A stretch of DNA of 64,000 bases. Origin: Apostichopus japonicus (Eukaryota > Echinodermata > Holothuroidea > Aspidochirotida > Stichopodidae). The stretch covers positions 18,125,001 to 18,189,000 of the forward strand of contig NC_092568.1 of NCBI RefSeq assembly GCF_037975245.1. The letters are read 5' to 3'. Below are positions 8,570 to 60,644 of this stretch, one piece after another (within the stretch, counting starts at the first letter, position 1; each line of letters begins with the position of its first letter). The notes beneath the pieces were generated by a model that saw only the letters and a list, made by a program, of their open reading frames with translations, had not been told where the DNA came from and did not search any database. The translations under genes were made by a program, and so were the position numbers.

Positions 8570-9360
8570 TTCTTCTAATTTTTGTCAAAATATGTAAACT
8601 ATTGATCTACATGTTGTGAACAAGGTGTGAATAAGGGAAAATTCAGAAATATTCAGCAATCAGTAAAATTTGCCCGTGTGAATTCTGGAGTGCCTCATAA
8701 CTGGAGCCACCAGTATGAGATGCCTTTTTTGACATTATTTCATGAATTGATTAAAATACATGTGTTACTATATTAATATAATGTATGGATGTATATATGT
8801 ATATATTTTAGATCCTCCTGCAAGCAGGAACTCGCGAAAAAGCCTCATTGGCTTATCAAAGCCGCAAACTGGCCGAAGTCAGTCTCTTAGATTCATATTT
8901 AACAACCATGATTATGAATTGTCAATTGTTAACAACTCTGTAACTGGACGACATACATTAATCTTGGAGTTACTCGAACTTGGGACCTTATGATTGAAAG
9001 GCACCAGCGTTAGCCACTGAGCTAGCTTTCTTGAAAATATAATATAGATAGATAAATGGAATATAGATGTAAAGTTTATGTTATAAATCACTATAAAGGT
9101 GTAACATGGTAAACATATGTTATATGTATTACAGTATAGCCTTAATCTTTGCAAAGTCTAGATCCAAGAAAAAACCTACTTTTGTACAGAATTATTAACA
9201 TTGTGTCATTTATTTATATTCTGTGTTGGGGCAGATTGATCATCAGAGGTTTGCAGGAAGGATAATTATCTTGGTTTACATGACATTCAAAATTATGCAA
9301 GTTTAATTGAAAGCTGTTCTATTGCTAGTTACATGTCATGTCTGTTAAACTTCATCTCAG
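8570..9360. promoter_or_regulatory. Intergenic stretch between head-to-head genes
   Basis: It lies between the minus-strand coiled-coil gene and the plus-strand NACHT-ZZ gene. Both must be transcribed outward from this ~0.9-1.5 kb region, so promoters for both are expected here. No TATA box stands out. A tRNA-derived SINE occupies 8900-9030. Confidence 0.3.
8900..9030 (-). mobile_element. tRNA-derived SINE fragment
   Basis: On the minus strand, TAGCTCAGTGGCTAACGC (box A) is followed about 35 bases later by AAGTTCGAGTAAC (degenerate box B), the layout of a tRNA-type pol III promoter. The stem pairing is poor, so it is a SINE head and not a functional tRNA. Confidence 0.6.
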
Positions 9361-9447
9361 GCAAAGATGGACGGATCCAATCAGGAAAAGGCTTTGGTCC
9401 TCGTAGCGGAATCCAGGCAGATGAAATCAAGTGAAGAAACAAGAGAG
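9361..9447 (+). CDS. NACHT-ZZ exon 1 (start codon at 9367)
   Basis: Acceptor CTTCATCTCAG, then GCAAAG and ATGG in a fair Kozak context, 27 codons (MDGSNQEKALVLVAESRQMK and on), and a GTATGT donor, phase 0. The acceptor means that an upstream 5' UTR exon, or possibly a coding one, exists. I could not place it. Confidence 0.65.
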
Positions 9448-12400
9448 GTATGTATTGTTGTCATACAGAAGAGGAAGATTACTGGGTGAACTTTAAGTGA
9501 ATTAAAGTCCTATCTCAGTCACATTAATAGCCTTGTGCTGTTGTGAATCTTGAATGTTCTTTTCATAAGGCACATACTGGAAAGCTCTCAAAAATAGATA
9601 CTTCCTTAGGAGACTAAAATTAAGGCTCACAAATGAAAGATCGAAAAAGAAAGACTACCTCAAGATAGTTTTGTCTGGTTCATACAGCTGTGTTAATCTC
9701 TTTACAAGAAAATAAGCTTGTACTATACATATATAAGCACAGCTACAGTTTATGAAGGTTAAGCTCATCATATCATACTGTATTGAATTTTATGATTATT
9801 TCACTGAATACTTGTGTGTATGTACATTAATTTTTTTGTTGCGATTATGGGGGGGGTGGGGGCATAGGGGGAGAGGGAGGCGGGCAGAGTGGCTTATGAT
9901 TTGTCGAGATGTTCAATAGTGCATTCATTTTAAAAGTATGTATAATGCCTGAATCTCTTGCCTACTCTTCTTTCAGGTGAAACTACACAGAGTAGATGAG
10001 AATCCAGATTCGAACAGTATAATGCTCTCCCTTGAAGATTCAAAAAATATACAAATTGATTGCCAGGACAAGAACATAATGGTAAAGTAATTTTGGTTTT
10101 TAAATTTTATGGTTTATTATATTGACGATCTAAACAGTAAGTTGCTTTCAAACTGCAAGAAGCAGAATGAAGTAAAGAAGTACTTAGAGAATCATGGAGG
10201 ATTTCTATATACTCCTCTACCTATTTTTACACCTAGCAAGTACAGATATGAGATACACATAGCAAATCCTATTGAAATATGTTTTTCACAAATGTAAGAC
10301 AGCTTCTAAGCATCGGAAATAATCATAAAACTGCCACTTAAGTTTGAAAAGTTTATCAGCAGTAAGAGTAAATCCTACTCATAGTATCAGAGAAAGATTG
10401 CAGGCACTTCCAACTTAATAACTTGTGTGGTTACCCTTCAGACGTTACAGAGTGTTCCCTTTGCATGAGATAATTTAGTATTTCAAATTTTGTGTAGCAC
10501 TTTTGAAGGTATCTTCAACTAAAGCTTCTGTGTACAAAACTGCTCTATGCATCTTTGCACAACTACAAAGCAATTTGACCATTTTGCATAGGTTTTTTTT
10601 AAATATATTTTTTGTGATGCGATACCCTGGATAAAGGATTCCCTGTTCTGTATGAAATGAACTGTAGCTATGTATCACTACTTTGTATAATATCTTGTAT
10701 AAATATTATCTTATCAATGTAGCATCGTGATTGTTGCATATAAATCTGCTAAATTGCTCCACTTTATGTGGTTTATAAAATTCTCTGTCGTTGGGTGATG
10801 GCGTTGTAGAAGTCGTCAGTTTATACAATTGATCTCACCGGCTGATGAGATCACAAAGTTTGGACTGTGAATTCGTTAAGGAATATTAGTTGATAGTTTA
10901 TTTCAGAAATAGTTTTAATGTCTTGTTGACTGGCATTTTATTATGTATTAGTGTACAGTACAGCAAGCAAGAATAAACAATAGAACATTTTTCTATCAAA
11001 TTCTTATATATCTTTTTTTTTTTATATTTGATAAGTCTCTCTCTGTCAGTCCAGTACATCTTGTGCTCAAATCCAGGATGTTTGAGCATCATGTTGGTTG
11101 CACATTAAACTTGCCCTTTTTGCATAAATCATACAAGTAGAAGAGCCAATTTCTTCCACAGCCATCCTTTTCCTCTCTGTCGGCATCCAAGTAGCCAAAA
11201 TGAAAACTAAAAACAATAAATATATTTTAGTTATCTCTCTTCACTGAGGAAAGGCTTGCTGTCATAGATTGCTAGTAGGTTCTATTCACACAATATGAGG
11301 CAGAAGTTTGTTCTTATTGATATACCACACAGATGTGTGCATAATTCCTGAAAATTTGTGTTTTACATATACATTTTATAATTTGATATGATACATTGCA
11401 TTTTTTTCCACCCTGCAGTTGAATTTTCCATCATCATCCCAGCCTACAACATTACAGATCAACGGAGATAGAAATCGCTGCTATCAAGATTGTAATGTGA
11501 CTGTGAATAACATGTATCAGCAAAACAGTTCTTATGGTACGTAGGTAGGATGATGTGTCATAAACTTACAATTTTTTTCATAACTGATTGCAAAAATAAG
11601 CATCAGGTATTTTATGAATTGAAGTCAGGAAATTTGAAATGTTTTGAAGCGAGTGGTTTCACTGCTCTTCGTAAAATTCAAACTTAACAACAAAAATTGA
11701 TTTTGGGAGTTAGAATTGTGGATTTAATTGAATATCACAAAATTTCTCCAAAAGAGAAAGTTGCCCATTTGATGAAGCTCTAAATACAAAAAAAAACTAT
11801 CAAAGTTGCAGCATACTTTGTAATTGGTTTGTAACTTTTCATCTGTTTCATACAAGTCCTCATTCAAACAAAGAGAGGCATGTGGTGACAATCTTTTAGT
11901 CCAAGAAAGAAAAAAATATTTTGCGGTATAAACAAATTTAATATACTTTTTTCCTTTTCAACCTCCTTGAGGTCTATATTGTATGTTGTTTCAATTTTAA
12001 AGGGAGTGAAGACTCGCGCACAAAGAAACGTCTCATGCTGGTAATCTGACCTAGTTTCAAATGAGGTGTAACAGAAGTGTTAGACACCACCATCGATCCC
12101 AGAAAATTCACACACAGCTTGCTACCGTCAGTAATTAGATACTAGTGTACAGTCAATACATAGAGCTACGGTCAATACCCACAACACAGTGAACATAGCG
12201 GCAGCGATAGACATCTCAGGTCTAGATGTAGAGACAAGAAGAAAACTTCATATGCAAGCAACGGAAAGTTAACTTTTTCAGAGCGCGGCACACAGTTTGG
12301 GGCGAGTCTTCAATGCCTTTAATGGTTCTGTTTAGACTACCATGAACATAACTACTCCTCAGATATATTTCTCGTATTATTTTTTTTGTATTTCTTGTGA

Positions 12401-15400
12401 TTCTTTACTCAGTGCCAGAGATACAGTCGCCTGTGAAGAGACCTCATCCTGGAGGTGAGTTTTGATCCCCTTCTGCTGGAAATATTAACTGTCTTGAAGC
12501 TGCTAAAAGAGGTAAATAGGGTTTTAGGTATGATCAAGAGGAACTTCAGTTTTCTGAAAGAGGACATCGTAGTTAGGCTTTATTAAGCAGTTGGTTAGGC
12601 CTCATCTGGAGTATGCTGTGCAGGCTTGGAACCCATATTTTGCTAAAGGAAGTACTTGAAAAGGTCCAGAGGAGGGCTACAAGGATGATTCGTTCCATAA
12701 AGAGTGTTCCTTATTTTACAACCGTTGAATCTCACCATACTGGAACTTAGGAGGTTACGTGGTGACTTGATTCAGGTTTTCAAGATTGTGTATGGTTTTG
12801 ACAATTTATCCTTCACCGACTTGTTCATGTTTGCTAATAGTAGTTGTACCAGAGGTCATTTGTCTTAAACTCCAAAAGTCACAAAGTAAGATTAATATTC
12901 GGCATAACTTTTTTTGTAATAGCGTTGTGAATGAGTGGAACGGTTTGCTCGAGAAAGTTGGACTTGCAAGTAGTGTCAATGGGTTTAAGAATGCTTTGGA
13001 CAAGCACTTTAAGCATTGTAATCGGGTCTGAGTGTTTGTGTCTTCAGTTTTTTTGCTCTCTTTATAGGGTCCTTGATGGGGACTTGAGTGTCCCTCCTGA
13101 TCCTTTTTTTTTCTACTAAACTAAACTAACTCTCTAATAGCTTCTACCTATTTGTTGCTTGTTACAATATGCATGAGATGGTTATCTAAACCAATCAGTT
13201 TGCGAGAGGTTTTTGATAATGCTAAAACCACTCTAAACTGTCCTCCCATATCATGTTTCAAAGCACTAGTACTGACAAACTGTCATTAGTTAGTGATTTA
13301 AAGGAGGATATGAAAGAACAATATGTAGAAATTATCACAAATTTGGATAAAATTTGGCAAATGAAATGCGCATCCACCTTTCTTTAAAACTGTAAAAATG
13401 TATATAATTTTCCATAATTCTTTTAGCATTTCATATAGAAGTTTATAAAATTATGAAAGTTTTCTATTGCTTCTGGTTCATTTTTATCTTGAGAGAGAGA
13501 GAAGATTGTTGAATTTATTTGCTTTTTTAGTGTCCTTACTAGTTTTCTATGTCCTTGCTTTTTAAGGCTCACAGGAAGATAACGAATTCAAGAGATCACG
13601 AGAAAGTTTTGCAGATTCACCAGCTGAAAGACAAAGGATCAAAAATGGTACTTTAAGAAATAAAGCAAAAAAAGAAAACAATATCTATAGTCATTTTTTT
13701 AGATCAAATTATACAACATATGCTACATGATATTGTAATATTCTATTAAATAGCTTATACAGTCAGTCGATAAATCTACTTTGAGTCAGTTTTATACTTA
13801 TCAATAAGACGAAGGATTTATTCGTAAAGATATATCAGGTACTAAAGATGTATTGCAAAAATGCCACAACTGGTCCCTTATTTAAGACAACTTTGACCAC
13901 TTATACCCCATTGAATCTCTCTAGCATGAATCTAATGAAGGAACATTCATCATAACCTGTCTGATGCAAATTCACCCCTCGGTTCCCATACTTATGGGCA
14001 CTTTCACACGATCGATTTAGAGATCTGAATTACAGTGCAAGTGTACTCGCACAATAGGACTGAGATGACAGCACCATCTGTAGAAACCTCGAAGAGCTCC
14101 ATTGGATAACCTTTGACCTATGTTGTTGCTATGGTAAGTAGCATTGAGCAATAAGACCACTGAACAAACAGTAGTAGGATAATATTAAAGCCACACTGTG
14201 TTTTTTTCTACTGCTTTTCAGATAACAGGATGTTGTTGATTGAACATCTATGGAAGAAATATGAAGACGTCAACTCCAGCATGACACCGGTTCCACGGAG
14301 ACGTGCGCAGAGGTGGCATATAAAGAAACTATTCGTAGACATAGGAGTCTCTATTCTGGACCAGACAAAGAGCAGCCGGCATGCCGGCAGTTGGAATTCG
14401 CTGAAGACTTACAAGGCGTTATTCACTAGCGAACATCTGGCCGAAGCCAAGAGAATCGTCATCGAGGGAGATCCCGGCTGCGGTAAGACCACCCTGATGC
14501 ATCAGTTAGCGTACCTCTGGTGCAGTAAGGTGGCCCCCATGGACAAGGTCGATATATTTGTACTTCTGTCCATGAATGAAATGAAGCCCGGTTGGTCGAT
14601 ACACAAGGCCATCAAGGAGACTCTCCTCCCAACAGATTGCAAGTTAGAAGCGGAGGACATCGAGGACATCTTGAAGGACGGATCGTGCAAGGTCTTGGCG
14701 CTAGACGGACTCGACGAATACTCGGGGAGGACAGCCGAACGTTACATGGACGAGGACGTGGTCAAGGATCTCATGAAAGGTCGGTCGCTAAGTAGAGTCA
14801 AGATTCTCCTCACCACCAGAAAATCTTGCGTCTCCGATCTCTACAACTGCTCTGTAGCGAGGGTCAGACTCGACGGGTTCCAGTGGAATCAACATTGCGC
14901 CTACGTCAGGAATGTCCTCGACGGCGAAGACGGTTCGATCCAGAAGTTTTGGAAACTGTTATCCGAGAACGATATCCTCGAGAGTCTGATGGCTGTTCCT
15001 CGCTTCTTTGTGGGTATTCCTCATGTTATCAGGGATATGACAGGAAGTCTAGCCGATTTTAGACTCGACACTGCCACAGGAGCATTCAGATGCATTGAAC
15101 CCTGCCTCGCACACTGCAGAAAAGTTAAGAGATACCCTGGAAGAGCGAAGACATCGAATAAACGTCCGTGTGAAGAATCCGCTTCTCTGATATGCGAACG
15201 AGCCTTTGAGGGTCTCGTAACTGATTGTCGATCGTGGCGCGTAGAAGAGCTACACGACGACCCCGGTTACGTAGGTCTGATTGAGAACGGTGTGCTAGTC
15301 GAGGAGGAGGAGGAGGAGGAAGAGGTCGATCTCCATGGCAACGAGGAATCGACACCAATGAGCGTCAGGTTTATGAAGGATCGTTTTCAGGAGTGGTTCG

Positions 15401-18400
15401 GAGCCAAGTACCTGTCCGGGTTAGCAGAATCCGAGCCAGAATTGTTTGCGGAGAAACTAGAGCAGATAGACCCGAACAGCCTTCAGCATCTTCTACGCTT
15501 CACGTGCGGTCTGAATCCGACAACAGTCAGACCGATACTTGAAAAATGCCTGCAGCAGGTCGAAGGGAAGCCACTGGTGGACATCTTCTGCCTGTGTCTG
15601 CATGAACACAGTGGAGACAAGACTCCTTTGATGGATTTGATCAAAATGATTTGTGCCGAGAAGTTTGACTTCTCCCTCTCCCATCACGGGATGCTGCATC
15701 AGGCCACAGCGTCACTGTTCCGATATGCCTCCGATCAACAGGTTTTTACGTTTTGGGTTTCCTGTACTTAATAAAAAGAAAAAAAGGAAAACAGGCTGCT
15801 GATGTTCATGTTGGCTTCCAAATATTGCTAAAGTTACATCGATTAAGTTTGCAGTCACATTCTATATATTTTCTACCCATTTCTTTACCAGAGTTGTCTT
15901 TTGGTATAATATGAGGTGGGTGGGAGACGAGCATTTAGCCGGTTATCCTGAGCTGGGTGAGGTGGTGGTGTAGGGATAATATAAAGTGTACATAACTTGT
16001 TTTGTACACATGCATGGCAGTGAAACAGCAGCCTGGGGGAGGGGGGGCTTAAGTGGTGGGGTGTGATGAGGCACAGCGCCCTTGTGCCCCAGTCTAACCG
16101 CCTGGTGGTGGATAGAAGGAAGATGCAAGATTTTCAGTTGTGTTTCATGGAGGCCGGGGAAGAGAGGTGTTGGTGTTTGGTATTGTTTTTCACTGCAAAT
16201 ATAGTAGTATTATACATAGCCCGCTTTCCAAGATTGATTTTGGGGCAGTCTCATGGGGATTCTTGCACAGGTGCAGTTCATATACAAGAGACTTGGAGAA
16301 AGATAACCTAACTTTTTAACATGCAAAAATATGCTCCCACAGATTGAGATAAATCGCGTCACTATCCGATCTCGTCACATCAAGGAAACGGACAACTTGG
16401 TTCTTCCGTCCGGAGTGCACTTACAACCACTTCCGACGGCAAGGAAGATCAAACTCAACAACTGGCCCGGTAAAGTAATCTTACCGTGGCTGAAGAGATG
16501 TGCAAGTCTTCAGACCCTTAAGTAAGTGGCAATTTATTTTTGGCATTTTCGTGGGTCAGAAGCTTGGCTTTCAGTTTTAACCCCTGAAGAGTTAATCAAT
16601 TTAAGAAAAAAGAACTTAAGTATAGAGAAGGAGGAGAAGAAAAATATATCAGTAGTGAATAGCCAGAGGTAGTATTTTTCAAAAAGAATGTGAAAACTAT
16701 GAGAATTTTGGTGCGTTGTACAAAAGAATTTCAGGTCCTCGGTTGTGATTTCTAAAGAATCACCACGTCCTCGGAAGAATTCTATTGTATGGGGTATTGT
16801 TAAGGTTAGGGTACGTGGATTTGAACAATGGAAAACACAATGGGGTCCTCGGTCTGAATGTAATACAAACATGTGTGTATGTGTGTGTGTGTGTATGAAG
16901 TGGGATGGAGGAGGGCGGGGGAGGGGGCGGGATGGAATGGAGGGATTCTTGGAAGAAGCAGAGAATGTGGGGGACCTTCAATCCAATTTATCCTTGAAAA
17001 TCTCCAGGTAGAGTACATTCTTACAAAAGGTAATGGTTATCAAACTGAATGCATTATTTTCTATCCATTTCTACAGAATTGTTAACGATACTCCGTTTCC
17101 GGCTGAAGACCTGTGGGAAATTTTTCATGATAAACAGACCAAAGGTAATTGCACAGATTAAGTGCTTACCTTTTGAAGGTTTTTTTCCAAAAGTTGTTAC
17201 ATGACAAGCTCTTGATTCGTAAACATGTCAAAAGGATGCAGTTTTTCTAATATCAATGTAGCAGGGATGTAAGGCTGTATTTACTTTAGGGATCAGATCC
17301 CTGCACTCGGTGTTAGGCGGTAAAAACAAGATAATCTGATTTTGAACCTCTGCCTGCTTCGGTATCAGACCGTTTGTTTGCGATCTCCAAACGCCCCAAA
17401 ATCATCAGCTGTGTGAGGTAGAACACTGTTGATATAATCACCCGCTACTATTGCGACAGATTTACTCATGTTACCAAAACAACGGAAAACAAGTGTCACC
17501 CTTGATCTTGGGTCGACCTTCAGCTCCATTACAAATTTTAGAAGGAGCTCAGGGTCCGATCCTTCCTCGATCCTAGTTTACAGTGGGGTTTCAAATCGCT
17601 GGACCGATATCTATGGTTATGCTACAAAATGGGACCCCGCGAGTACATGCTTTTTGTGAAACCTGTGAAAGAGGTTAGGTGAAGCTCTCCATCTTTTGCT
17701 GTGTGGACAAAAGTGGCATATTTTTGTGGTGAAGCCATGGGGTACGATTCCTGGTTTTGTGAGAATTTTGCATTTTTTTGTTTTTCAAGCTTCATATTTA
17801 ATATTTGCACCACATTCTTTAACCTCTCTCTTCTTTGTAGCTTCATTTGGTGACAGTTTTAATATTCTTTTTATATTTCCTTTCCAGTGGTGTTGGTTAC
17901 ATATGGGATGACCTTTGAACTTGCCAAGGGAAAATGGATGGTAGGTTGTTCTCATTTACTACATAAAAAAACAAGTGTACTATCGTATTAAGGGTCTAGA
18001 AAAGCCAAACTCTGCATGCTGTCTCCACTAAGTTGTAGTATTGAAACGTTCAAATTCAAAACAGATTTAAAGATGTTGTGAACAATGTGAATGCTGTAAA
18101 TTCTATACTTTGGTGAGTATTACCAATAATGTCAAATATTGCATTCAAATAGGTGCCACTTATTGATGGCAAGAAGTGCACTAAATTGGACAGTCATTTG
18201 ACATTGCTATCAAAATTGTTTTTTCATAGAATGGTCTTAAGATGGATGACTTAAAACACTGCAAAAACTTTCCATTGCATTCAAACCTTACACTTGAGCT
18301 TAAAATGGTAAAAACTTGGAAACCATGAGAACTTGACATCCATTAATAGAAATGGAGTGTGTTATTTATTCACTAGCATGTTTTTTAACAAACAGGAGCA

Positions 18401-21337
18401 GTCGAGTGTGTTTTATTTAAATTATGTAAATTTCTATGGTAATGGTATGAAAAATCTTGCGTTGTGATTGTATGAAAATATACAGCTCTCCAACAAATCA
18501 ATTGGCATTGCTACATACCTGGTGGTGTAAATATTTTGACCCTAATCAATAATAAATTATCCCAACAAATCAATCAGTCAAAATATTGATCTTCTTGGGC
18601 CGATCATGTTGCAATTTTTGTTCTCCCTTTTGGTTCTATCGAATCGTATTTATCGCTAAAGTTGAGAGAGCAAAATAACAGCCTCGGGTTTAATATTCTG
18701 TAGTCTCTTTCCCAACTTGTTGCTTCTTTTCTTTCAGGTTTATCATGATCGGTCCTGCGACGGGTGTCTCAGGGGGTCCATCCTCGGGGATCGTTTCAGA
18801 TGTACGGAATGCCAGCGGTATAATCTCTGTCGTAGCTGCAAAATGGAGGGTCTGCATCCCGACCATGCCTTCACCACATTTTCGGGAATTGAGGTATTTG
18901 AGGTGTTCGGAAATCTCTTCAAGTTGCTTGAGCTAAGTTGTTTAGCTGGAAAATAGACATCTCGAGAAAGAGAATGGAGACAATGAAAGAGAAACCCTGA
19001 TACTTAATCTGTGGTATCCCTCGATTGGCATTTGATACTTGCGGCCAGCTGTCATATTCAAGCTTTTGACTCTGACTGTTGGAGGTGGCAGTGATATTTT
19101 CCATGGTCCGTTTGACTCCAAACCGCAAACTATTTATTTCAAATAACTGTGTAATAAGCATTGTTAAAGGTCACTAAATTGTATACTTGAATAGAATGGA
19201 TGCTTCTAGAATGTTATAGCTTGTTTTCTAAGACTTTTACAAAATGTGAGTTATCTGGAAATTTTTGCAATCAATGCTTGTTTCTGTTTATTTCAGAGAA
19301 GACATCAGTACAAGTGTGATGGGTGTAAAGAAAGCCCAATCATTGGAACAAGGTTCAGGTGCTGGACTTGTCTTCAGTTTAATCTCTGCGAAATTTGTAA
19401 AGACAGAAATATTCATTCCGACCATCAGTTTAAAGAATTCAGCGGTGAAGAGGTAATGAGAGTGGTCGTTTTGAAATCTCTTCTCGGAGGGAATGAATCC
19501 CGTAGGTGCATTCCTCTGATTCTAAATGTATGAAGACTGGTACCATTTATTAAAATCTATGGGTTAATGTTAACCATAGTTAAACTATTAATCTTAACTA
19601 TATCATCATAAACCTGCTATGAACAGGAGTGTTAAGGGCCAGGTCATTCCATAGGGACATGTCACAAGGCCCCCCTCTGGAAGTCTTTGTTTAATATAAT
19701 ATTATGAAAATGAGAACATACTTATGCCATATTGCCCAATAACTGGTCCCAGGCCCCACAGTTGCAATTACACTGACCCACCTGCCCCCTCTTCCCCCCC
19801 CCCCTCTTTCCTCTCATCAGACCTGGCTATGAAGGAGTTTTAGGACATGGTCAAGCTATTAATATTTTGTTTAGGTCAGTAAATAAAAACTTCTAAAAGG
19901 CATTCAAACATGTATAGTAACACTAATGGAAAACAAGCAAGGACAACCTTTCTGTGTCTGTAGACCTTTTCTGTGTGATTGTTGCAGACACCAATCAGCT
20001 GCTGTAATTCCCCTAAAGACTGAATGTAATTCAGTATTCTATTCTCATGATGTGACATCTAATATTAACTTAGTAGCTACATACTTCTAAGAATGGTGGG
20101 CAAAAAACCAACAAAACTTTAAATACAATATTAACTGGCACCAAAATTGAAGTTTATAGGTTAGTCGCTTCCAACTTTTCCTTTCTGATAGGATAAATTG
20201 AATAAATAAAAGGTAAGGAGTAGGGGGTGGGGGGTTGGGGAGGGGGAGTATGCATATCAAACTTTATCTTGTTTATCCCTAGTGACATTTGGTAATGTAT
20301 GTAAGTATGTTTGTTTCTCCTAATGTATCATGTTTGTATTATTATGTATTAAATTTTTAATTTTATTTCCCAACTATAATTCAGGCAAGGAACTCTCAAT
20401 ATACCTGCAGTGAGTGCCAAGAGAATCCAATCGTTGGAAGCTATTACAGATGTAAGACTTGCGCAAGTCGTTTATACTTCTGTCAATGTTGCATGCAGAG
20501 GGAAGGCCATAGCGATCATGGAGTTTACCAATTTAATGGGTCAGAGGTAAGGAGCTCTTATGGTGCCATTAACATTTTTGCTTTTGCTTTAACAGTGAGC
20601 GATGGAAATTTATAGTAGAACTGACATCATCGTATTGATGATTAAATAGCCATTGGTTATAATGTCAGGGATGTAGCCGGGGGGGGGGGGTGGGGAGCAG
20701 TGGGAGCAACTGCTTCCCCCTTTCAGTATCGAAAAATTGCTGAAAATTGTTGTTTTTGTTGCATGGTATTTTGTCAGTGCTCTTTTGATCTTGAATACTC
20801 CTCAGCTCCGCTAACTCGATTATAATCGTAGTAACATTCAGGCCTACTGTTTCAGCTACTTAGTTTGGCAGATGCAATTAGCTAAATTTAGCCTATAGCC
20901 TTTTACAAGGCTACAGTTGGCCACTGCGTAATAAAATACATATAGCCTACCTAACCGCACTCGATGGAGTGGCCCGAACCATTTGCACAACGACGTCAAC
21001 AAAGAGCGTTCTCATCCTTTCTATGATGCGTCCTAAGTTGTTGCACGAACAGCATGTTATGAAGCTAAGCTAGCAATCTTACATGATACGCATTTCCTAT
21101 AAATACTTTTTTTTTTCATTTACTCTTCTTTGGTTTTCTCAGCCTCCTCACCTTTTTGTCCGTTGTGACAACTGTGGGGAAAGACCCGTTCGAGGAAAGC
21201 TCTTCAAATGCAAGGACTGCATCGACTACAAGCTCTGTGAATGTTGCTGGGATAGGCAAGTACATCCTGGACATGAATTTGAAGTGATAATTAGACAGAC
21301 AGCAGCAGAAGTGACTACAAACAGTTACAACTTGTAA
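9367..21337 (+). CDS. NACHT NTPase with four C-terminal ZZ zinc fingers (NLR-like receptor)
   Basis: Thirteen exons (9361-9447, 9977-10081, 11419-11536, 12413-12454, 13567-13647, 14222-15741, 16343-16521, 17077-17144, 17888-17940, 18738-18893, 19297-19452, 20385-20546, 21143-21337) join without a phase conflict into about 971 residues ending at TAA. Residues 1-145 are unrecognised and low in structure. Residues ~215-370 are a NACHT domain with Walker A GDPGCGKTT (~225-233), Walker B VLALDGLDEY (~300-309) and sensor-like LLTTR (~338-342). A winged-helix-like tail has RFMKDRFQEWFGAKYL. Residues ~650-750 look like one or two leucine-rich repeats. Residues ~755-960 hold four ZZ fingers. Known NACHT receptors oligomerise on ligand binding with ATP, and ZZ fingers bind protein N-termini, histone tails or SUMO. 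A cytosolic immune or quality-control sensor is inferred. Confidence 0.85.
9977..10081 (+). CDS. NACHT-ZZ exon 2
   Basis: Acceptor TACTCTTCTTTCAG, 35 codons (VKLHRVDENPDSNSIMLSLE and on), GTAAAG donor, phase 0 at both ends. It ends with KNIQIDCQDKNIM, which resembles the beta-prone repeats of amyloid signalling motifs only loosely. Confidence 0.65.
11419..11536 (+). CDS. NACHT-ZZ exon 3
   Basis: Acceptor CCACCCTGCAG, 39 codons plus one base, GTACGT donor, phase 0 in and phase 1 out. It contains TTLQINGDRNRCYQDCNVTV, a polar N/Q/G-rich stretch. Confidence 0.65.
11997..12322. mobile_element. 318-bp MITE with TTAA target duplication
   Basis: The element at 12001-12318 starts AGGGAGTGAAGACTCGC and ends GCGAGTCTTCAATGCCT, inverted repeats that differ at only a few bases. 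TTAA flanks both ends (11997-12000, 12319-12322). TTAA duplication is typical of the piggyBac and Kolobok superfamilies. No transposase is encoded. It lies in intron 3 of the NACHT-ZZ gene. Confidence 0.75.
12413..12454 (+). CDS. NACHT-ZZ exon 4 (42 bp)
   Basis: Acceptor GATTCTTTACTCAG, codons reading VPEIQSPVKRPHPG, donor GTGAGT, phase 1 at both ends. It is short, but both splice sites are strong and the phase fits its neighbours. Confidence 0.6.
12490..13034 (+). pseudogene. Non-LTR retrotransposon reverse transcriptase, 3' remnant
   Basis: Across shifting frames one reads VNRVLGMIKRNFSFLKED, RPHLEYAVQAWNPYF, KVQRRATRMIRSIKSVP, LRRLRGDLIQVFKIVYGF and finally NSVVNEWNGLLEKV with VNGFKNALDKHF before a stop. 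This is the typical C-terminal end of CR1/Jockey-type endonuclease-reverse transcriptases. Several stops and frameshifts show that it is dead. It lies in intron 4 of the NACHT-ZZ gene, in the same sense. Confidence 0.85.
13567..13647 (+). CDS. NACHT-ZZ exon 5
   Basis: Acceptor CTTGCTTTTTAAG, codons SQEDNEFKRSRESFADSPAE and on, donor GTACTT, phase 1 at both ends. It is charged and probably disordered. With exon 4 it could supply a basic KRP/KRSR patch. Confidence 0.6.
14222..15741 (+). CDS. NACHT-ZZ exon 6: whole NACHT module
   Basis: A 1.5-kb exon after TTTTTTTCTACTGCTTTTCAG (phase 1 in). It encodes a pre-NACHT helical part, Walker A at 14467-14493, Walker B DGLDEY at 14704-14721, LLTTR at 14806-14820, a winged-helix-like region with GLIENGVLV, an acidic run of eight Glu, and the FQEWFGAKYL motif. 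It then runs into LRFTCGLNP, as in NLR helical domain 2. The chosen end is the phase-0 donor CAACAG then GTTTTT, which is weak. Read-through would add ten codons and stop at 15771. Confidence 0.88.
15742..16342. other. Intron 6 of NACHT-ZZ, no gene seen
   Basis: A purine-rich stretch with G runs around 16035. Open frames on either strand are short and lack coding character. Confidence 0.5.
16343..16521 (+). CDS. NACHT-ZZ exon 7 (leucine-rich segment)
   Basis: Acceptor ATGCTCCCACAG, 59 codons and two bases, donor GTAAGT, phase 0 in and 2 out. ARKIKLNNWPGKVILPWLKR and CASLQTLK have the spacing of a leucine-rich repeat. Confidence 0.7.
17077..17144 (+). CDS. NACHT-ZZ exon 8
   Basis: Acceptor CATTTCTACAG, one base completes Lys, then IVNDTPFPAEDLWEIFHDKQ, and a GTAATT donor in phase 1. 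It continues the leucine-rich segment of exon 7. Confidence 0.65.
17888..17940 (+). CDS. NACHT-ZZ exon 9
   Basis: Acceptor TTATATTTCCTTTCCAG, then VVLVTYGMTFELAKGKWM and a GTAGGT donor, phase 1 in and 0 out. It links the leucine-rich part to the first ZZ finger. Confidence 0.65.
18738..18893 (+). CDS. NACHT-ZZ exon 10: ZZ finger 1
   Basis: Fifty-two codons, phase 0-0. Cys pairs CDGC, CTEC, CRSC and the final HPDH follow ZZ spacing, with GDRFRC and YNLC between them, close to the ZZ finger of p62 and dystrophin as remembered. All eight zinc ligands are present. Confidence 0.88.
19297..19452 (+). CDS. NACHT-ZZ exon 11: ZZ finger 2
   Basis: Fifty-two codons, phase 0-0, acceptor TTTCTGTTTATTTCAG, donor GTAATG. 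Ligands CDGC, CWTC, CEIC and HSDH with GTRFRC and FNLC between them. Same length and frame as finger 1, consistent with exon duplication. Confidence 0.88.
20385..20546 (+). CDS. NACHT-ZZ exon 12: ZZ finger 3
   Basis: Fifty-four codons, phase 0-0. Ligands CSEC, CKTC, CQCC and HSDH. It has one extra residue between the second and third Cys pairs (ASRLYF), making it the most divergent of the four. Confidence 0.85.
21143..21337 (+). CDS. NACHT-ZZ exon 13: ZZ finger 4 and stop
   Basis: Acceptor TTTGGTTTTCTCAG, 64 codons and TAA. Ligands CDNC, CKDC, CECC and HPGH, followed by a ~24-residue tail ending TTNSYNL. Confidence 0.86.
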   Translation, partial: PPHLFVRCDNCGERPVRGKLFKCKDCIDYKLCECCWDRQVHPGHEFEVIIRQTAAEVTTNSYNL

Positions 21338-25602: not shown

Positions 25603-25635
<33 letters not shown>

Positions 25636-25724
25636 GCAATGGAGGTAAACGACAAAGGCAAATGAATATATATAAATGAAAATCGTAATGAGTTGGAAAA
25701 TCAAGAACAGTGAAAAAACTTTCA

Positions 25725-25796
25725 GCCTCCACCGGGATTCGAACCACGGGCCTCCCGCTCTGTACGCGGACACCCTAACCACTAGGCTATGGACGC
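25725..25796 (-). mobile_element. tRNA-derived SINE head, unit 1
   Basis: A 72-nt tRNA-like fold: acceptor stem GCGTCCA/TGGAGGC (six of seven pairs), D arm with box A TAGCCTAGTGGTTAGGG, a perfect anticodon stem TCCGC/GCGGG with loop GTACAGA, and box B GGTTCGAATCCC. The T stem has two mismatches, so a SINE head fits better than a tRNA gene. Confidence 0.8.
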
Positions 25797-26097
25797 TGAT
25801 TGTATGTCCAGAGGTTCGAAACCGGTAAGGAAGATCGTAATTCCACTGTAGGCGTTTGTCACCTATATCGAACAATACTAGTTCTGTTTTTGGTGACATA
25901 TTTTGCCCTACTCTAGAGATCAAACATGATGCTATCCAACTCGAAAATCATTTGTGATTCCTAAAGCCGGATCTCGAAAGAGATACTTTGAACAGACTTT
26001 ATGTTAATGCAATGGAGGTAAACGACAAAGGCAAATGAATATATATAAATGAAAATCGTAATGAGTTGGAAAATCAAGAACAGTGAAAAAACTTTCA

Positions 26098-26169
26098 GCC
26101 TCCACCGGGATTCGAACCACGGGCCTCCCGCTCTGTACGCGGACACCCTAACCACTAGGCTATGGACGC
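26098..26169 (-). mobile_element. tRNA-derived SINE head, unit 2
   Basis: Same 72-nt tRNA-like sequence as unit 1, exactly 373 bp away and in the same orientation. Confidence 0.8.
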
Positions 26170-26591
26170 TGATTGTATGTCCAGAGGTTCGAAACCGGTA
26201 AGGAAGATCGTAATTCCACTGTAGGCGTTTGTCACCTATATCGAACAATACTAGTTCTGTTTTTGGTGACATATTTTGCCCTACTCTAGAGATCAAACAT
26301 GATGCTATCCAACTCGAAAATCATTTGTGATTCCTAAAGCCGGATCTCGAAAGAGATACTTTGAACAGACTTTATGTTAATGCAATGTGATTCCTAAAGC
26401 CGGATCTCTTTCGAGATCCGGCTTTAGGAATCACAAATGATTTTCGAGTTGGATAGCATCATGTTTGATCTCTAGAGTAGGGCAAAATATGTCACCAAAA
26501 ACAGAACTAGTATTGTTCGATATAGGTGACAAACGCCTACAGTGGAATTACGATCTTCCTTACCGGTTTCGAACCTCTGGACATACAATCA

Positions 26592-26663
26592 GCGTCCATA
26601 GCCTAGTGGTTAGGGTGTCCGCGTACAGAGCGGGAGGCCCGTGGTTCGAATCCCGGTGGAGGC
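26592..26663 (+). mobile_element. tRNA-derived SINE head, unit 3
   Basis: Same tRNA-like sequence on the opposite strand, in the right arm of the palindrome. Confidence 0.8.
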
Positions 26664-26964
26664 TGAAAGTTTTTTCACTGTTCTTGATTTTCCAACTCAT
26701 TACGATTTTCATTTATATATATTCATTTGCCTTTGTCGTTTACCTCCATTGCATTAACATAAAGTCTGTTCAAAGTATCTCTTTCGAGATCCGGCTTTAG
26801 GAATCACAAATGATTTTCGAGTTGGATAGCATCATGTTTGATCTCTAGAGTAGGGCAAAATATGTCACCAAAAACAGAACTAGTATTGTTCGGTATAGGT
26901 GACAAACGCCTACAGTGGAATTACGATCTTCCTTACCGGTTTCGAACCTCTGGACATACAATCA

Positions 26965-27036
26965 GCGTCCATAGCCTAGTGGTTAGGGTGTCCGCGTACA
27001 GAGCGGGAGGCCCGTGGTTCGAATCCCGGTGGAGGC
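26965..27036 (+). mobile_element. tRNA-derived SINE head, unit 4
   Basis: Same sequence, 373 bp right of unit 3. This unit's tail changes into a TA-rich tract instead of the shared 3' end. Confidence 0.8.
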
Positions 27037-27139
27037 TGAAAGTTTTTTCACTGTTCTTGATTTTCCAACTCATTACGATTTTCATTTATATATATATATA
27101 TATGTATATGTATATATGCATATAGATATACAGTATACC

Positions 27140-33599: not shown

Positions 33600-35745
33600 T
33601 GTAGTACTCGAGTATGTGAGAAGAGATAACTATTACACGATTACGGTATATCGCGATAACTTGAAGAGTATCATAAGAAGAGATAACTCTAACATGATTA
33701 CGGTATATCGCGATAACTTGAAGAGTATGATAAGAAGAGATAACTATTACACGATTACGGTATATCGCGATAACTTGAAGAGTATCATAAGAAGAGATGA
33801 CTCTAACATGCATCGCGATAACTTGAAGAGTATCATAAGAAGAGATAACTCTAACATGATTACGGTATATCGCGATAACTTGAAGAGTATCATAAGAAGA
33901 GATAACTATTACACGATTACGGTATATCGCGATAACTTGAAGAGTATCATAAGAAGAGATAACTCTAACATGATTACGATATATCGCGATAACTTGAAGA
34001 GTATGATAAGAAGAGATAACTATTACACGATTACGGTATATCGCGATAACTTGAAGAGTATCATAAGAAGATATGACTCTAACATGCATCGCGATAACTT
34101 GAAGAGTATCATAAGAAGAGATAACTATTACACGATTACGGTATATCGCGATAACTTGAAGAGTATCATAAGAAGAGATAACTCTAACATGATTACGGTA
34201 TATCGCGATAACTTGAAGAGTATGATAAGAAGAGATAACTATTACACGATTACGGTATATCGCGATAACTTGAAGAGTATCATAAGAAGAGATGACTCTA
34301 ACATGCATCGCGATAACTTGAAGAGTATCATAAGAAGAGATAACTATTACACGATTACGGTATATCGCGATAACTTGAAGAGTATCATAAGAAGAGATAA
34401 CTCTAACATGATTACGGTATATCGCGATAACTTGAAGAGTATGATAAGAAGAGATAACTATTACACGATTACGGTATATCGCGATAACTTGAAGAGTATC
34501 ATAAGAAGAGATGACTCTAACATGCATCGCGATAACTTGAAGAGTATCATAAGAAGAGATAACTCTAACATGATTACGGTATATCGCGATAACTTGAAGA
34601 GTATCATAAGAAGAGATAACTATTACACGATTACGGTATATCGCGATAACTTGAAGAGTATCATAAGAAGAGATAACTCTAACATGATTACGATATATCG
34701 CGATAACTTGAAGAGTATGATAAGAAGAGATAACTATTACACGATTACGGTATATCGCGATAACTTGAAGAGTATCATAAGAAGATATGACTCTAACATG
34801 CATCGCGATAACTTGAAGAGTATCATAAGAAGAGATAACTATTACACGATTACGGTATATCGCGATAACTTGAAGAGTATCATAAGAAGAGATAACTCTA
34901 ACATGATTACGGTATATCGCGATAACTTGAAGAGTATCATAAGAAGAGATAACTATTACACGATTACGGTATATCGCGATAACTTGAAGAGTATCATAAG
35001 AAGAGATGACTCTAACATGCATCGCGATAACTTGAAGAGTATCATAAGAAGAGATAACTATTACACGATTACGGTATATCGCGATAACTTGAAGAGTATC
35101 ATAAGAAGAGATAACTCTAACATGATTACGGTATATCGCGATAACTTGAAGAGTATCATAAGAAGAGATAACTATTACACGATTACGGTATATCGCGATA
35201 ACTTGAAGAGTATCATAAGAAGAGATGACTCTAACATGCATCGCGATAACTTGAAGAGTATCATAAGAAGAGATAACTATTACACGATTACGGTATATCG
35301 CGATAACTTGAAGAGTATCATAAGAAGAGATAACTCTAACATGATTACGATATATCGCGATAACTTGAAGAGTATCATAAGAAGAGATAACTCTAACATG
35401 ATTACGATATATCGCGATAACTTGAAGAGTATCATAAGAAGAGATAACTATTACACGATTACGGTATATCGCGATAACTTGAAGAGTATCATAAGAAGAG
35501 ATAACTCTAACATGATTACGATATATCGCGATAACTTGAAGAGTATCATAAGAAGAGATAACTATTACACGATTACGGTATATCGCGATAACTTGAAGAG
35601 TATCATAAGAAGAGAAAACTCTAACATGATTACGATATATCGCGATAACTTGAAGAGTATCATAAGAAGAGATAACTATTACACGATTACGGTATATCGC
35701 GATAACTTGAAGAGTATCATAAGAAGAGATGACTCTAACATGCAT
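33600..35745. repeat. 2.1-kb satellite, 57/48-bp units in a 219-bp higher-order repeat
   Basis: Units contain the palindrome TATCGCGATA, then acttgaagagtatcataag. Three 57-bp forms and one 48-bp form make a 219-bp block. The short form's aacatgcatc recurs at 33805, 34081, 34300, 34519, 34795, 35014, 35233 and 35737, with spacings of 276, 219, 219, 276, 219, 219 and 504, all equal to 219 plus multiples of 57. Because every unit is a multiple of three, frames of over 720 codons stay open on both strands. I read these as repeat artefacts. Confidence 0.92.
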
Positions 35746-58200: not shown

Positions 58201-60644
58201 GGCAAACAAATATCACAGCTTAGACCTATATCATACCTTTATAACATATACCTAACCTAGGGTACTTTGCATATAAGGATTCGGAGGAAGCTTATAGTGA
58301 TGTCATTACCCTTTGATAAATTTTGGTAAAATGGAGAGTGCTGAGTTACACAACGGTGCTACATATTTCCACCTTTAGCAACAATGTTGAAGAATTTTCG
58401 ACTGTTGAGGTTGTACCGCATATACAAGTTAGGCAATATATTTCTACACTGTCCACTACGAATTCGTGTAATATTCTGTCTGCCAGGGAGGGAGGACCTG
58501 ATATTATTGTGAGGGCGGGGGCTTTACCCCCCCCCCCCCCGGCACACATAATGGTATACGTAGTTGGGCCCCTGTTGTATAGTGTTTCAGCTAATATCCC
58601 AACCTTCTTCGGACAAGAAGAACAACTTCATAAAGTGAACTAGTGAACTTAATGAATCACAGTTGGAAGTGTAAGCTGGATGATTGGGACGCTCAACCAG
58701 GTGCTTCAAAGCCAATCTATGCCCACAGGATATGTCACTTTGTGATACGGAGGGAGGTGTCTGATTTTCATCACTCCCGCCTCTAGCTAATTTAATTCCG
58801 AACTAATTGATGCGATAATATCTTAGCTTAGAGAATACGTCTACTACTTTTACAGTTGCGAAATTAAAGACAAATATGTTATGCATCAAGATAGAGAGAG
58901 AGAGAGAGAGGGGGGGGGGGGAGAGAATATTAATCACAAATATTTACAGTCCTTTGTCCTATACCATGATATGGGTAAAACCATATCCTGTCCAAGTGTT
59001 ACATATTATCTACCTTTAGACCTCAGCCATCTGTAAAGTACCCATATCATGTCTGAAAATCTCTCATCGTCCAGTATATATGATAAAACGTCTAGCAATA
59101 ATAGGTAAATTCTATTTTGGGCAAGCAAAAGTTCTATTTTTGGGGCGACTCCCTATAGTTTTACTGATGGGAAATGTTGTGACAAGGGGGAGGGGAATGA
59201 GGACTATCAATTGCTGGAGCTATGCATACTTACTGCACATACAATTATAATCAAAATATTCAAAATGCATGTATTACCTCTCATTGGGCTACGTATATGT
59301 CTTTGGTCGATATACAGAATACCAATCGCAACACGTTCGTTTCCATGGTTATCGTCACGTTTCCTTCCTTACCATGGTTACCTAAGAAAATAAGCAAAGG
59401 ATTGAAGAAGGGAAATGGTTGTGAATGTCAAGGTAGCCGTAGTAAATGGTAGAGATATATGCTGGGTGACTAAAGCCATACAGTACCGGTACGGTCCATG
59501 ACCGAATGGTCCATATTCAATCATTTTGTCGGATACGACCAACCGTGCCATATATTTTCTTCGCACGGTATGGTTAGAGGTCAATGGTTCATCATTTGAT
59601 CCAAAAACGACAGTGACGATATGTAACGACTCCACCTCATCTCTCTCTATACCAGATAATTATTGGTGGCAGCAGACGAATCCATCACTATTGGCTGCGG
59701 CGGCGGCATCACGCGGTGGTCTTGGTTATTCGCCTTCTCTCCATATACCGGCCGAGTCCAGTTACACTTACCCATCGATAATTACACCAGCCCACATGGA
59801 CACCCCCGGTTCCGTGCTCCCTCACTACGCCATTGAGAAATGCGGCTACGGGTACATGACGTCATCATACGGCCATCTCAAACAGACAGATATGATGAAT
59901 GGGCAAGAGATTGGGTACAAGGGAGCCCCAAGGAGAAAGAAGACCTGGTCGAGAGCGGTGTTTACTAGTTTGCAGCGAAGAGGACTTGAAAAGAGGTTCG
60001 AGGTACAGAAATACGTCAATAAACCGGACCGGAAACAACTGGCGTCGGCGTTAGGTCTAACTGACTCCCAGGTTAGTACGTTTTACGTTGTTGTTTACGT
60101 CCAGTCAACTTAAAAGTTAGCGACACGCTATGCGCATTCATAACGCCATACCGTACTGTTGCACCGAAATAGGTATAATGGCGCGTGCAACGCGTATATA
60201 CTGTAGTTCGACATACGTTTAGTTTGTCGATGTGCACGGCGCAGCGATACCCTGTATTTGGCTGGGGGAGTGGGATGCAATCACCTCTTGCCATTGGATA
60301 TAGGAAGGGTTGGGGTGGGTGTCGTTGTATCATTATGAGATTATCTTTGTGCTAATAATACATCAAACTCACGTTATTATATGTCTCTGGGTGAGGGTGC
60401 ACGGGTTGGTTGTGACAACATTGCACCACCGTACTAGTTTCCGTATTGATCTTTCGTAGCTGTCAGCCAATACTGACTGGACTTCTTATTTCACGTGGTA
60501 AACAAGTTTACTCTGGTTTTTTTGGTTTTGCAGGTAAAGGTTTGGTTCCAAAACCGACGGATGAAGTGGCGTCATAGTCAGAGGATCAAAAAACAGCAAG
60601 AAAAAGCTTTCCCAAATTCTCCACATCCAGAGCTTCCCGATTAA
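37966..60644 (+). CDS. HLX: H2.0-like homeobox transcription factor
   Basis: Three exons (37966-38314, 59656-60071, 60534-60644) join in phase into about 291 residues. Residues ~94-107, [14 protein letters not shown], form an Eh1 Groucho-binding motif and match the KFGIDRILSAEF region of vertebrate HLX as remembered. Residues 212-271 are the homeodomain, with [37 protein letters not shown] and [16 protein letters not shown]. Gln50 and Asn51 are present. HLX proteins are nuclear regulators, in vertebrates of gut mesenchyme and blood cells. The tail after the homeodomain is only ~20 residues, far shorter than in mammals. The 21-kb first intron has phase 1 at both ends, so a further cassette exon could exist in it. 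Confidence 0.9.
41078..41165 (+). repeat. Third copy of the attcttcaac repeat
   Basis: Reads gaaaattcttcaacaatg, then tatagcacc and cttagcaccctccatttta, then a G-rich tail, matching the two copies near 28.6 kb. Confidence 0.55.
42395..43070. repeat. Two TA-rich microsatellite blocks
   Basis: Blocks at 42395-42600 and 42866-43070, almost pure TA with rare G or C, separated by non-repetitive DNA. Short repeats of atggagataatacat sit between them. Confidence 0.9.
45774..45973. repeat. TA microsatellites
   Basis: Two short TA tracts (45774-45796 and 45924-45973) flanking about 130 bases that include a direct repeat of attcgttaaggatga. Confidence 0.75.
46933..46990. repeat. TA microsatellite
   Basis: About 55 bases of TA, preceded by several ataggctatatat repeats. 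Confidence 0.9.
50100..50220 (-). mobile_element. tRNA-derived SINE head
   Basis: On the minus strand, GGGGTTCGATTCCCGGCCGG is a good box B, preceded by GCTTAGCAATCGGGAGG. Box A is poorly kept. The adjoining body at 50245-50600 is a dispersed repeat shared with 53345-53690. Confidence 0.55.
50245..50600 (+). repeat. Dispersed repeat, copy 1 (partner at 53345-53690)
   Basis: Ordered landmarks gaagacttgg, tatgacatcatc, gtgcttcc, tattgaacctctatgcat, gatgga, tatgacatcaca and aagtgacag are shared with copy 2. Confidence 0.65.
52155..52238. repeat. TA microsatellite
   Basis: About 80 bases of nearly perfect TA. Confidence 0.95.
53345..53690 (+). repeat. Dispersed repeat, copy 2
   Basis: Same ordered landmarks as copy 1, with moderate divergence and small indels. 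No shared open frame, so it is probably non-autonomous. Confidence 0.65.
54769..54910 (-). promoter_or_regulatory. Minus-strand TATA promoter and short first exon inside HLX intron 1
   Basis: On the minus strand a CCAAT-like TATCCAATTAG near 54890 is followed by TATAAATA (54856-54849), a predicted start near 54825, a purine-rich ~50-nt leader, and a consensus donor AACAG then GTAAGC (exon end 54773). Flanking DNA is CpG-rich, unlike the rest of the intron. The transcript would run antisense to HLX toward its first exon. Confidence 0.45.
59656..60071 (+). CDS. HLX: HLX exon 2 (linker and homeodomain 1-44)
   Basis: Acceptor CTCTCTCTATACCAG. Two bases complete Asp from exon 1, then 138 codons to TDSQ and a GTTAGT donor. 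Upstream in-frame codons back to 59526 are taken as intron because of the clear pyrimidine tract. The exon has an Ala run (LLAAAAASR) and a Tyr/Ser/Pro-rich linker. Confidence 0.85.
60534..60644 (+). CDS. HLX: HLX exon 3 (recognition helix and stop)
   Basis: Acceptor TTTTTTTGGTTTTGCAG, then [20 protein letters not shown] and a short tail ending HPELPD and TAA. The intron between homeodomain residues 44 and 45 is a known position in several homeobox classes. Confidence 0.9.
   Translation, partial: VKVWFQNRRMKWRHSQRIKKQQEKAFPNSPHPELPD

Follow-up and report, generated by a model that had tools for sequence, protein, structure and literature searches.

A sea cucumber gene model joining a NACHT NTPase to four ZZ fingers, compared with described NLRs

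Described NLRs and the NACHT-ZZ locus

NLRs that carry zinc fingers are known from fungi: in Sordariales, 57 such proteins have been described, 52 of them with C-terminal fingers, 23 with fingers of the treble-clef kind and 17 of these with ZZ fingers, of which at least 12 are C-terminal since only five of the 57 are N-terminal, and a single NLR carries a tandem array of three zinc fingers (PMC12258605). For the moss Physcomitrella patens, the accessible part of another report mentions ZZ among the domains of NLR-like genes (PMC7145615); these are plant NB-domain genes, and in that part the mention of ZZ is all that likens them to the gene treated here. In sea cucumber, AjNLRC4 and AjNLR-new are presented, in the available portions of the two papers, as receptors made of Ig, transmembrane and NACHT parts (PMC8699970, PMC13133943). 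In the present study, we analysed a stretch of Apostichopus japonicus DNA of 64,000 nt (NC_092568.1, positions 18,125,001 to 18,189,000; hereafter the window), free of any N, in which positions 9367-21337 on the plus strand encode a protein of 971 residues with a NACHT module and four ZZ zinc fingers.

The 13 exons of this gene join in frame with AG/GT at every junction, in agreement with the phase-consistent gene first proposed for the locus, and the product begins with a stretch in which Pfam finds no domain, followed by the intact NACHT module, by an NLR-type continuation of about 100 residues and, at the C-terminus, by the four fingers. Like the fungal ZZ NLRs of Sordariales, it combines a STAND NTPase with treble-clef fingers; unlike them, it has no repeat domain that was found and belongs to an animal. 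It shares with AjNLRC4, as far as the available part of that source goes (PMC8699970), a NACHT module without CARD or leucine-rich repeats (LRRs), and it differs from both AjNLRC4 and AjNLR-new in having neither Ig domain nor membrane helix and in ending in four ZZ fingers.

The original prediction knew of no such architecture in the literature. This holds for animals, in that we met no ZZ-bearing animal NLR in the openly licensed literature, where term searching can miss cases, since the Sordariales paper itself surfaced only through a broader NLR search; it does not hold for fungi, whose ZZ NLRs are published (PMC12258605), nor for the moss genes mentioned in the part available of PMC7145615. 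Among other papers, and within the portions accessible of each, PMC2575513 has no mention of zinc or of a ZZ domain, PMC11508797 none of zinc, PMC8195603 mentions zinc four times, never as a ZZ domain, and in PMC11797021 the terms 'zinc' and 'ZZ-type' were not found, one legend naming a zinc finger for TIR proteins. We conclude that the kind is already known and that its animal, LRR-less, four-finger form appears to be new. If real, the gene would be an animal counterpart of the fungal ZZ-tailed NLRs, suggesting that ZZ is a sensor head which NLRs acquire repeatedly, and its four fingers of about 50 residues, on separate exons, would offer a small expressible module for asking what an LRR-less NLR binds.

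Gene anatomy and family placement

The NACHT module is carried by exon 6 (14222..15741, residues 143-649; all parts of the gene lie on the plus strand), where Pfam places NACHT at residues 220-375 (E 4.1e-17, 63 bits vs a cut-off of 26.7) and where the nSTAND3 model also passes narrowly (27.7 vs 27.2 bits). Both motifs expected of a NACHT/NLR-type STAND NTPase are intact, namely Walker A (GDPGCGKTT, 14467..14493) at residues 225-233 and Walker B (LALDGLDEY, 14695..14721) at residues 301-309, which bears out this half of the proposed fusion. Farther on, FQEWFGAKYL (15385..15414) resembles the QEFxAAxxL motif that lies late in NLR NACHT modules. The closest solved NACHT modules by sequence are those of NAIP and NLRC4 (E 6e-7 and 0.003), which carry death-fold or BIR domains plus LRR domains; Pfam found none of these accompanying parts in the window protein. 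A single-sequence AlphaFold model of the NACHT exon reached a pLDDT (predicted local distance difference test) score of 40 and was not used.

Ahead of the NACHT exon lie exon 1 (9367..9447, residues 1-27), whose ATG has A at -3 and G at +4 and an AG acceptor directly upstream (9359-9360); exons 2 (9977..10081, residues 28-62) and 3 (11419..11536, residues 63-101), both without Pfam domain; exon 4 (12413..12454), in the 3' part of which a putative bipartite nuclear localisation signal spanning residues 110-127 begins; and exon 5 (13567..13647), which holds the second half of that signal and ends in a weak donor, ATG/GTACTT. Pfam finds no domain in residues 1-142, and no CARD, PYD, Death or BIR there, and Ig, Death and CARD exons were absent from the 10 of 81 upstream open stretches that were scanned, which leaves room for an additional exon farther upstream. 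A RHIM-like reading of residues 51-55 (NIQID, exon 2) was dropped, since it deviates from the RHIM core and has no Pfam match. Exons 1-5 and 8-9 show no significant similarity to the other loci compared. Within intron 4, a short open stretch at 12771-13031 (+) gave no Pfam match; it presumably resembles the tail of a retroelement protein.

Behind the NACHT exon come exons 7 (16343..16521, entered in phase 0), 8 (17077..17144, residues 709-731) and 9 (17888..17940, residues 732-749), which sum to 300 nt, so that they could be skipped in frame. One or two leucine-rich turns had been claimed for this region; what stands is one loose LRR-like match in residues 650-749, whereas Pfam lists no LRR family at E <=10, where its filters drop most weak matches, and the PDB search detects none either. 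Exon 7 would be better called the post-NACHT exon of the NLR family, to which it has a likeness described below. The C-terminal LRR array of classical NLRs is absent from the window protein, and none appeared within 8 kb downstream of three paralogs, where LRR-like motifs are scattered (0-2, vs 2-3 in controls); in one of the three, ten downstream open stretches give no ZZ or LRR in Pfam. The suggestion that the ZZ array replaces LRRs is weakened accordingly, since with no LRR array downstream of three paralogs there were possibly no LRRs to replace.

In order to place the gene, the 671.6 Mb assembly (35 contigs, including the window) was searched. The NACHT search gave 488 candidates, and all of the 106 scored matched; the NACHT exon search gave 541, and all of the 85 scored matched, the window's own among them, with the other scored exons 29-34% identical to it over most of its length. 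Among the 38 loci fetched, the alignment reaches residue 495 or beyond in 33, namely the window and 32 more; a further four are partial, and the last did not align at the threshold used. Every one of the 32 other full-length NACHT exons carries a phase-0 GT at the counterpart of 15742, and several paralogs also match the 5' border of exon 6. Exon 6 thus stops at the same point as its counterparts in the NLR family, so that another exon should follow. A profile built from the next exons of six paralogs found the segment at 16307 (exon 7) as its sole significant match among 2149 window segments (E 6e-5, 25 residues aligned), a result flattered by the choice of these six from 52 candidates partly for resemblance. 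The conserved 3' border and phase of the NACHT exon, together with this family-type next exon, mark the gene as an NLR, and both the 3' end of exon 6 and exon 7 appear supported by paralogs in the same genome.

The gene seems, from these comparisons, to be a deep branch of a very large NLR family. The nearest of the 32 other NACHT exons is 31.6% identical to it (blastp), and no identity among the matches listed exceeds 34%; among these 32 copies, which are the best matches to the window exon and were not drawn at random, 27 have a partner at >=88% and 28 one at >75%, three stand at 44-53%, and one (L011) is as isolated as the window gene (32%). Very large NLR expansions were seen on contigs C7, C12, C16 and C17. 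No NACHT exon was found in viral contigs.

Upstream of the NACHT exon of one paralog (L028), locus L069 holds Ig stretches, one with Ig_3 and V-set above cut-off, and a membrane helix, all of which probably form one transcript with the NACHT exon; Ig and membrane helix upstream of NACHT are shared with AjNLRC4 and AjNLR-new, as these are described in the available parts of their sources. Upstream of the NACHT exon of another paralog (L010), an open stretch (L068:953-1387, minus strand) contains MGNRSSK, which we take to resemble an N-myristoylation start. The window gene has no Ig domain, either in the 10 of 81 upstream stretches or in the protein by Pfam, and no membrane helix, its best 19-mer reaching a Kyte-Doolittle hydrophobicity of 1.44 and none being strongly hydrophobic. 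The protein should therefore be soluble, since neither Ig domain nor membrane helix was detected.

The ZZ fingers occupy four exons: exon 10 (18738..18893, ZZ1), exon 11 (19297..19452, ZZ2) and exon 12 (20385..20546, ZZ3, with an extra residue in the spacer from the second CxxC to the third) are phase 0-0 cassettes, and exon 13 (21143..21337) adds ZZ4, a short tail and the stop codon. Pfam detects ZZ in four stretches (E 3.1e-21), and all eight zinc ligands (Cx2C, Cx2C, Cx2C, Hx2H) are present in each of the four, so that the four complete fingers of the original prediction stand. Structure prediction, which had been proposed for residues 750-971, was carried through for ZZ1 of the four; the model (pLDDT 82) has the ZZ fold, with p62 ZZ as best PDB match (E 7.5e-5), and by sequence the array also matches fission-yeast Nbr1 (E 1.6e-5). 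The units are no fresh duplication, since they are 33-49% identical to one another.

The fusion of NACHT with ZZ appears to be single-copy in the genome, because outside the window gene no ZZ match lies within 100 kb of a NACHT among the matches listed. ZZ is uncommon in this genome: all 40 candidates were scored, 28 of them matching at E <=10 and 21 above cut-off; three are in the window gene, whose ZZ3 was missed by this family search and found by a separate one. Of the 25 matches outside the gene, 22 were compared with the listed NACHT places, and the remaining three each lie <1 kb from a compared one. The nearest to a listed NACHT, at 118 and 157 kb, are both marginal matches on contig C16, and the ZZ loci fetched contain no NACHT apart from the window's own. 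A second NACHT-ZZ gene at C16:18720420 was considered and rejected, the site being a repeat-like tract without NACHT, whose score and extent are equalled at 18759859. The other ZZ units include some that look like those of dystrophin, dystrobrevin, p62, MIB, KCMF1 and HERC2, and those of a two-ZZ gene.

The preferred reading and its rivals

Read as a single transcript, the locus would encode a soluble, deeply diverged NLR with a four-ZZ C-terminus, in which a NACHT switch is coupled to a ZZ protein-binding head, an explanation to which we give about an even chance. Oligomerisation would be switched by the NACHT module in the usual ATP-driven way, and the fingers would form a multivalent head docking folded partners or unusual tails, comparable to the three ZZ of fission-yeast Nbr1 with their hydrolase cargos; binding of a partner, or loss of a guarded one, may gate the NACHT. 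As described in the available part of PMC8997447, ZZ domains can pick folded proteins, and two can do so jointly: ZZ1 of Nbr1 takes Ams1 and Ape4 as cargos, and ZZ2 acts with ZZ3 to recognise Lap2 and Ape2. The likeness lies in several ZZ picking cargos singly or jointly, but Nbr1 is an autophagy receptor and not a NACHT protein. A deeply diverged, apparently single-copy gene amid young NLR copies would have the profile expected of a guard of host proteins and not of an arms-race receptor. Going further, an animal NLR lineage may independently have gained a C-terminal ZZ head, of the sort published for fungal NLRs and mentioned for moss ones, whose four diverged fingers form a composite, non-degron sensor of host proteins, in a single-copy guard set apart from the fast-expanding and partly membrane-bound NLRs of this genome and provided, through the weak donor of exon 6, with a switchable NACHT-only isoform; this outline is tentative, and we hold it to be possible and somewhat improbable.

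Several observations weigh against the reading of the locus as a ZZ-headed NLR. The N-terminus has no detected effector domain, and the sequence gives no indication of the signalling route; the ZZ array might serve for output or as an adaptor and not as a sensor. Exon 7 taken alone has no significant match in 61 other loci (E 0.16 at best) and matches only itself in the genome, and family membership is firm for exon 6 and less strong for exon 7. A homology-free exon scan, made with splice scores based on site frequencies and a neutral codon model, prefers phase 2 for exons 10, 11 and 12 and not the phase 0 of the ZZ reading. Finally, the exon 6 donor, CAG/GTTTTT, is weak, lying within the top 40% of all GTs, and an in-frame stop at 15769 (TAA, 15769-15771) overlapping an AATAAA at 15770 (15770-15775) stands directly behind it.

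The scan backs the borders of the model more than its frame. Its 15 best candidates at 15.7-21.5 kb include the exact borders of exons 10, 12, 7, 11 and 8, its top upstream candidates are 9361-9447 and 9977-10081, and its phase agrees with that of the model for exons 7 and 8, exon 2 and the exon at 9361; the frame of exons 10-12, for which it favours phase 2, rests on the ZZ match. Among 356 control candidates from 44 kb, 36, 44, 20 and 24 equal or beat exons 3, 5, 9 and 11, so that exons 3, 5 and 9 depend chiefly on their phase and splice sites, and exon 11 is secured by its ZZ. The score of exon 13 could not be used, its stop having been counted in it.

The weak donor gives rise to the thought that the locus makes two products, one with NACHT only, by read-through of exon 6, and others with ZZ, from the same or a separate promoter, while the fusion itself is rare or absent, which we regard as unlikely. 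A NACHT-only isoform is possible because the weak donor is followed by the in-frame stop and AATAAA; the donors of the paralogs have A at +3 in 31 of 32 cases, where the window has T, and the weak donor is particular to this gene. A gene finder for which exon 6 was the only training material also ends the gene at 15771, but it could neither use the exon 6 donor nor find the fusion, because donors scoring <1 were excluded. The AATAAA could be a matter of chance, since the motif occurs 72 times on the plus strand of the window, and exon 7, which lies 3' of the weak donor, is similar to the conserved exon that follows NACHT in the NLR family. A separate ZZ gene with its own promoter, named earlier as what would refute the fusion, is not favoured either: the open stretch ahead of the ZZ1 finger in exon 10 contains no ATG, and intron 9 contains no ATG-to-donor candidate for an initial exon, although the latter is a weak test, as 27 controls average 0.30 and 22 of them likewise have none, and a non-coding first exon is possible.

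A quite unlikely alternative is that the array reads N-degrons or autophagy cargo tags like p62, which would make the protein an NLR-like degron sensor, as had been suggested at the outset. The predicted fold of ZZ1 and its best structural matches point to p62 ZZ, including complexes with degron-type peptides; the sequence matches include the PRT1 and BIG ZZ solved with degrons, and KCMF1; and the zf-UBR model of Pfam lies just above cut-off on the ZZ stretch (25.9 vs 25.2 bits). In p62, according to the accessible part of PMC6197226, the pocket for N-terminal arginine is formed by D129, N132, D147 and D149, and D129K, D147K or D149K each abolished binding. At positions 129/147/149, ZZ1 to ZZ4 have D/R/N, D/Q/N, S/R/Y and D/D/K, the placement of ZZ3 depending on its one-residue insertion. 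D129 is thus kept in three of the four fingers, but all three acidic residues occur together in none, vs 4 of 11 other ZZ units of the genome (those complete by pattern, from ten loci, with the incomplete ones of L054 and L055 set aside), and D149 is absent from all four, vs present in 9 of 11, with ZZ4 carrying the very K149 of the D149K change. D147 alone is a weak marker, because the genome's p62-like unit itself has N at 147, and a changed 147 need not mean loss.

The best structural match of ZZ1 is a domain, that of p62/SQSTM1, whose acidic pocket the window fingers do not keep, and for this reason p62-type reading of N-terminal arginine by the array is unlikely and the degron claim weakened; other ZZ modes (PRT1, BIG) remain open. 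The autophagy receptors NBR1 and p62 carry PB1, FW and UBA domains beside ZZ; the Pfam listing for the window protein at E <=10, which comprises 18 families, contains none of these three.

It is also improbable that the gene encodes a nuclear NLR, imported by the bipartite signal and binding chromatin or SUMO-type tails through its ZZ fingers. Nuclear NLRs are known (CIITA and NLRC5), to which it would bear a loose likeness; bipartite matches start at residues 110 (KR-12-KRSR), 124 and 154, such a match also turning up in 78 of 2000 sequences made by shuffling residues 1-142; and the structural matches of ZZ1 include the ZZ of HERC2 and p300, solved with SUMO1 or histone H3 peptides. Against it, the match at 154 falls within the NACHT exon, the pockets of H3-binding ZZ are acidic too and no such pocket is kept in the window fingers, and Pfam finds no DNA- or chromatin-binding domain.

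Least probable to our mind is that the array serves as an output arm, NACHT oligomers clustering the fingers so that a ubiquitin ligase or an autophagy partner is drawn in. In its favour, no N-terminal effector domain was found, which leaves the C-terminus as the sole module recognisably made for interaction, and clustering would raise avidity, but the extra zinc fingers of fungal NLRs are mostly C-terminal (52 of 57) and are read there as binding modules (PMC12258605).

Other features of the window

Beyond the gene, a homeodomain exon lies at 59502-60110 (+; Pfam E 3e-10), presumably HLX-like. At 25634-27095, a 373-bp unit occurs as two tandem pairs of opposite orientation, accompanied by four sequences similar to tRNA-Cys(aca), two per strand, and the units are perhaps an element resembling a short interspersed element (SINE). 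A large minisatellite of 57-bp units covers 33619-35742, with both strands open over about 730 codons, and a 29-bp tandem repeat at 2165-2968 has 28 copies.

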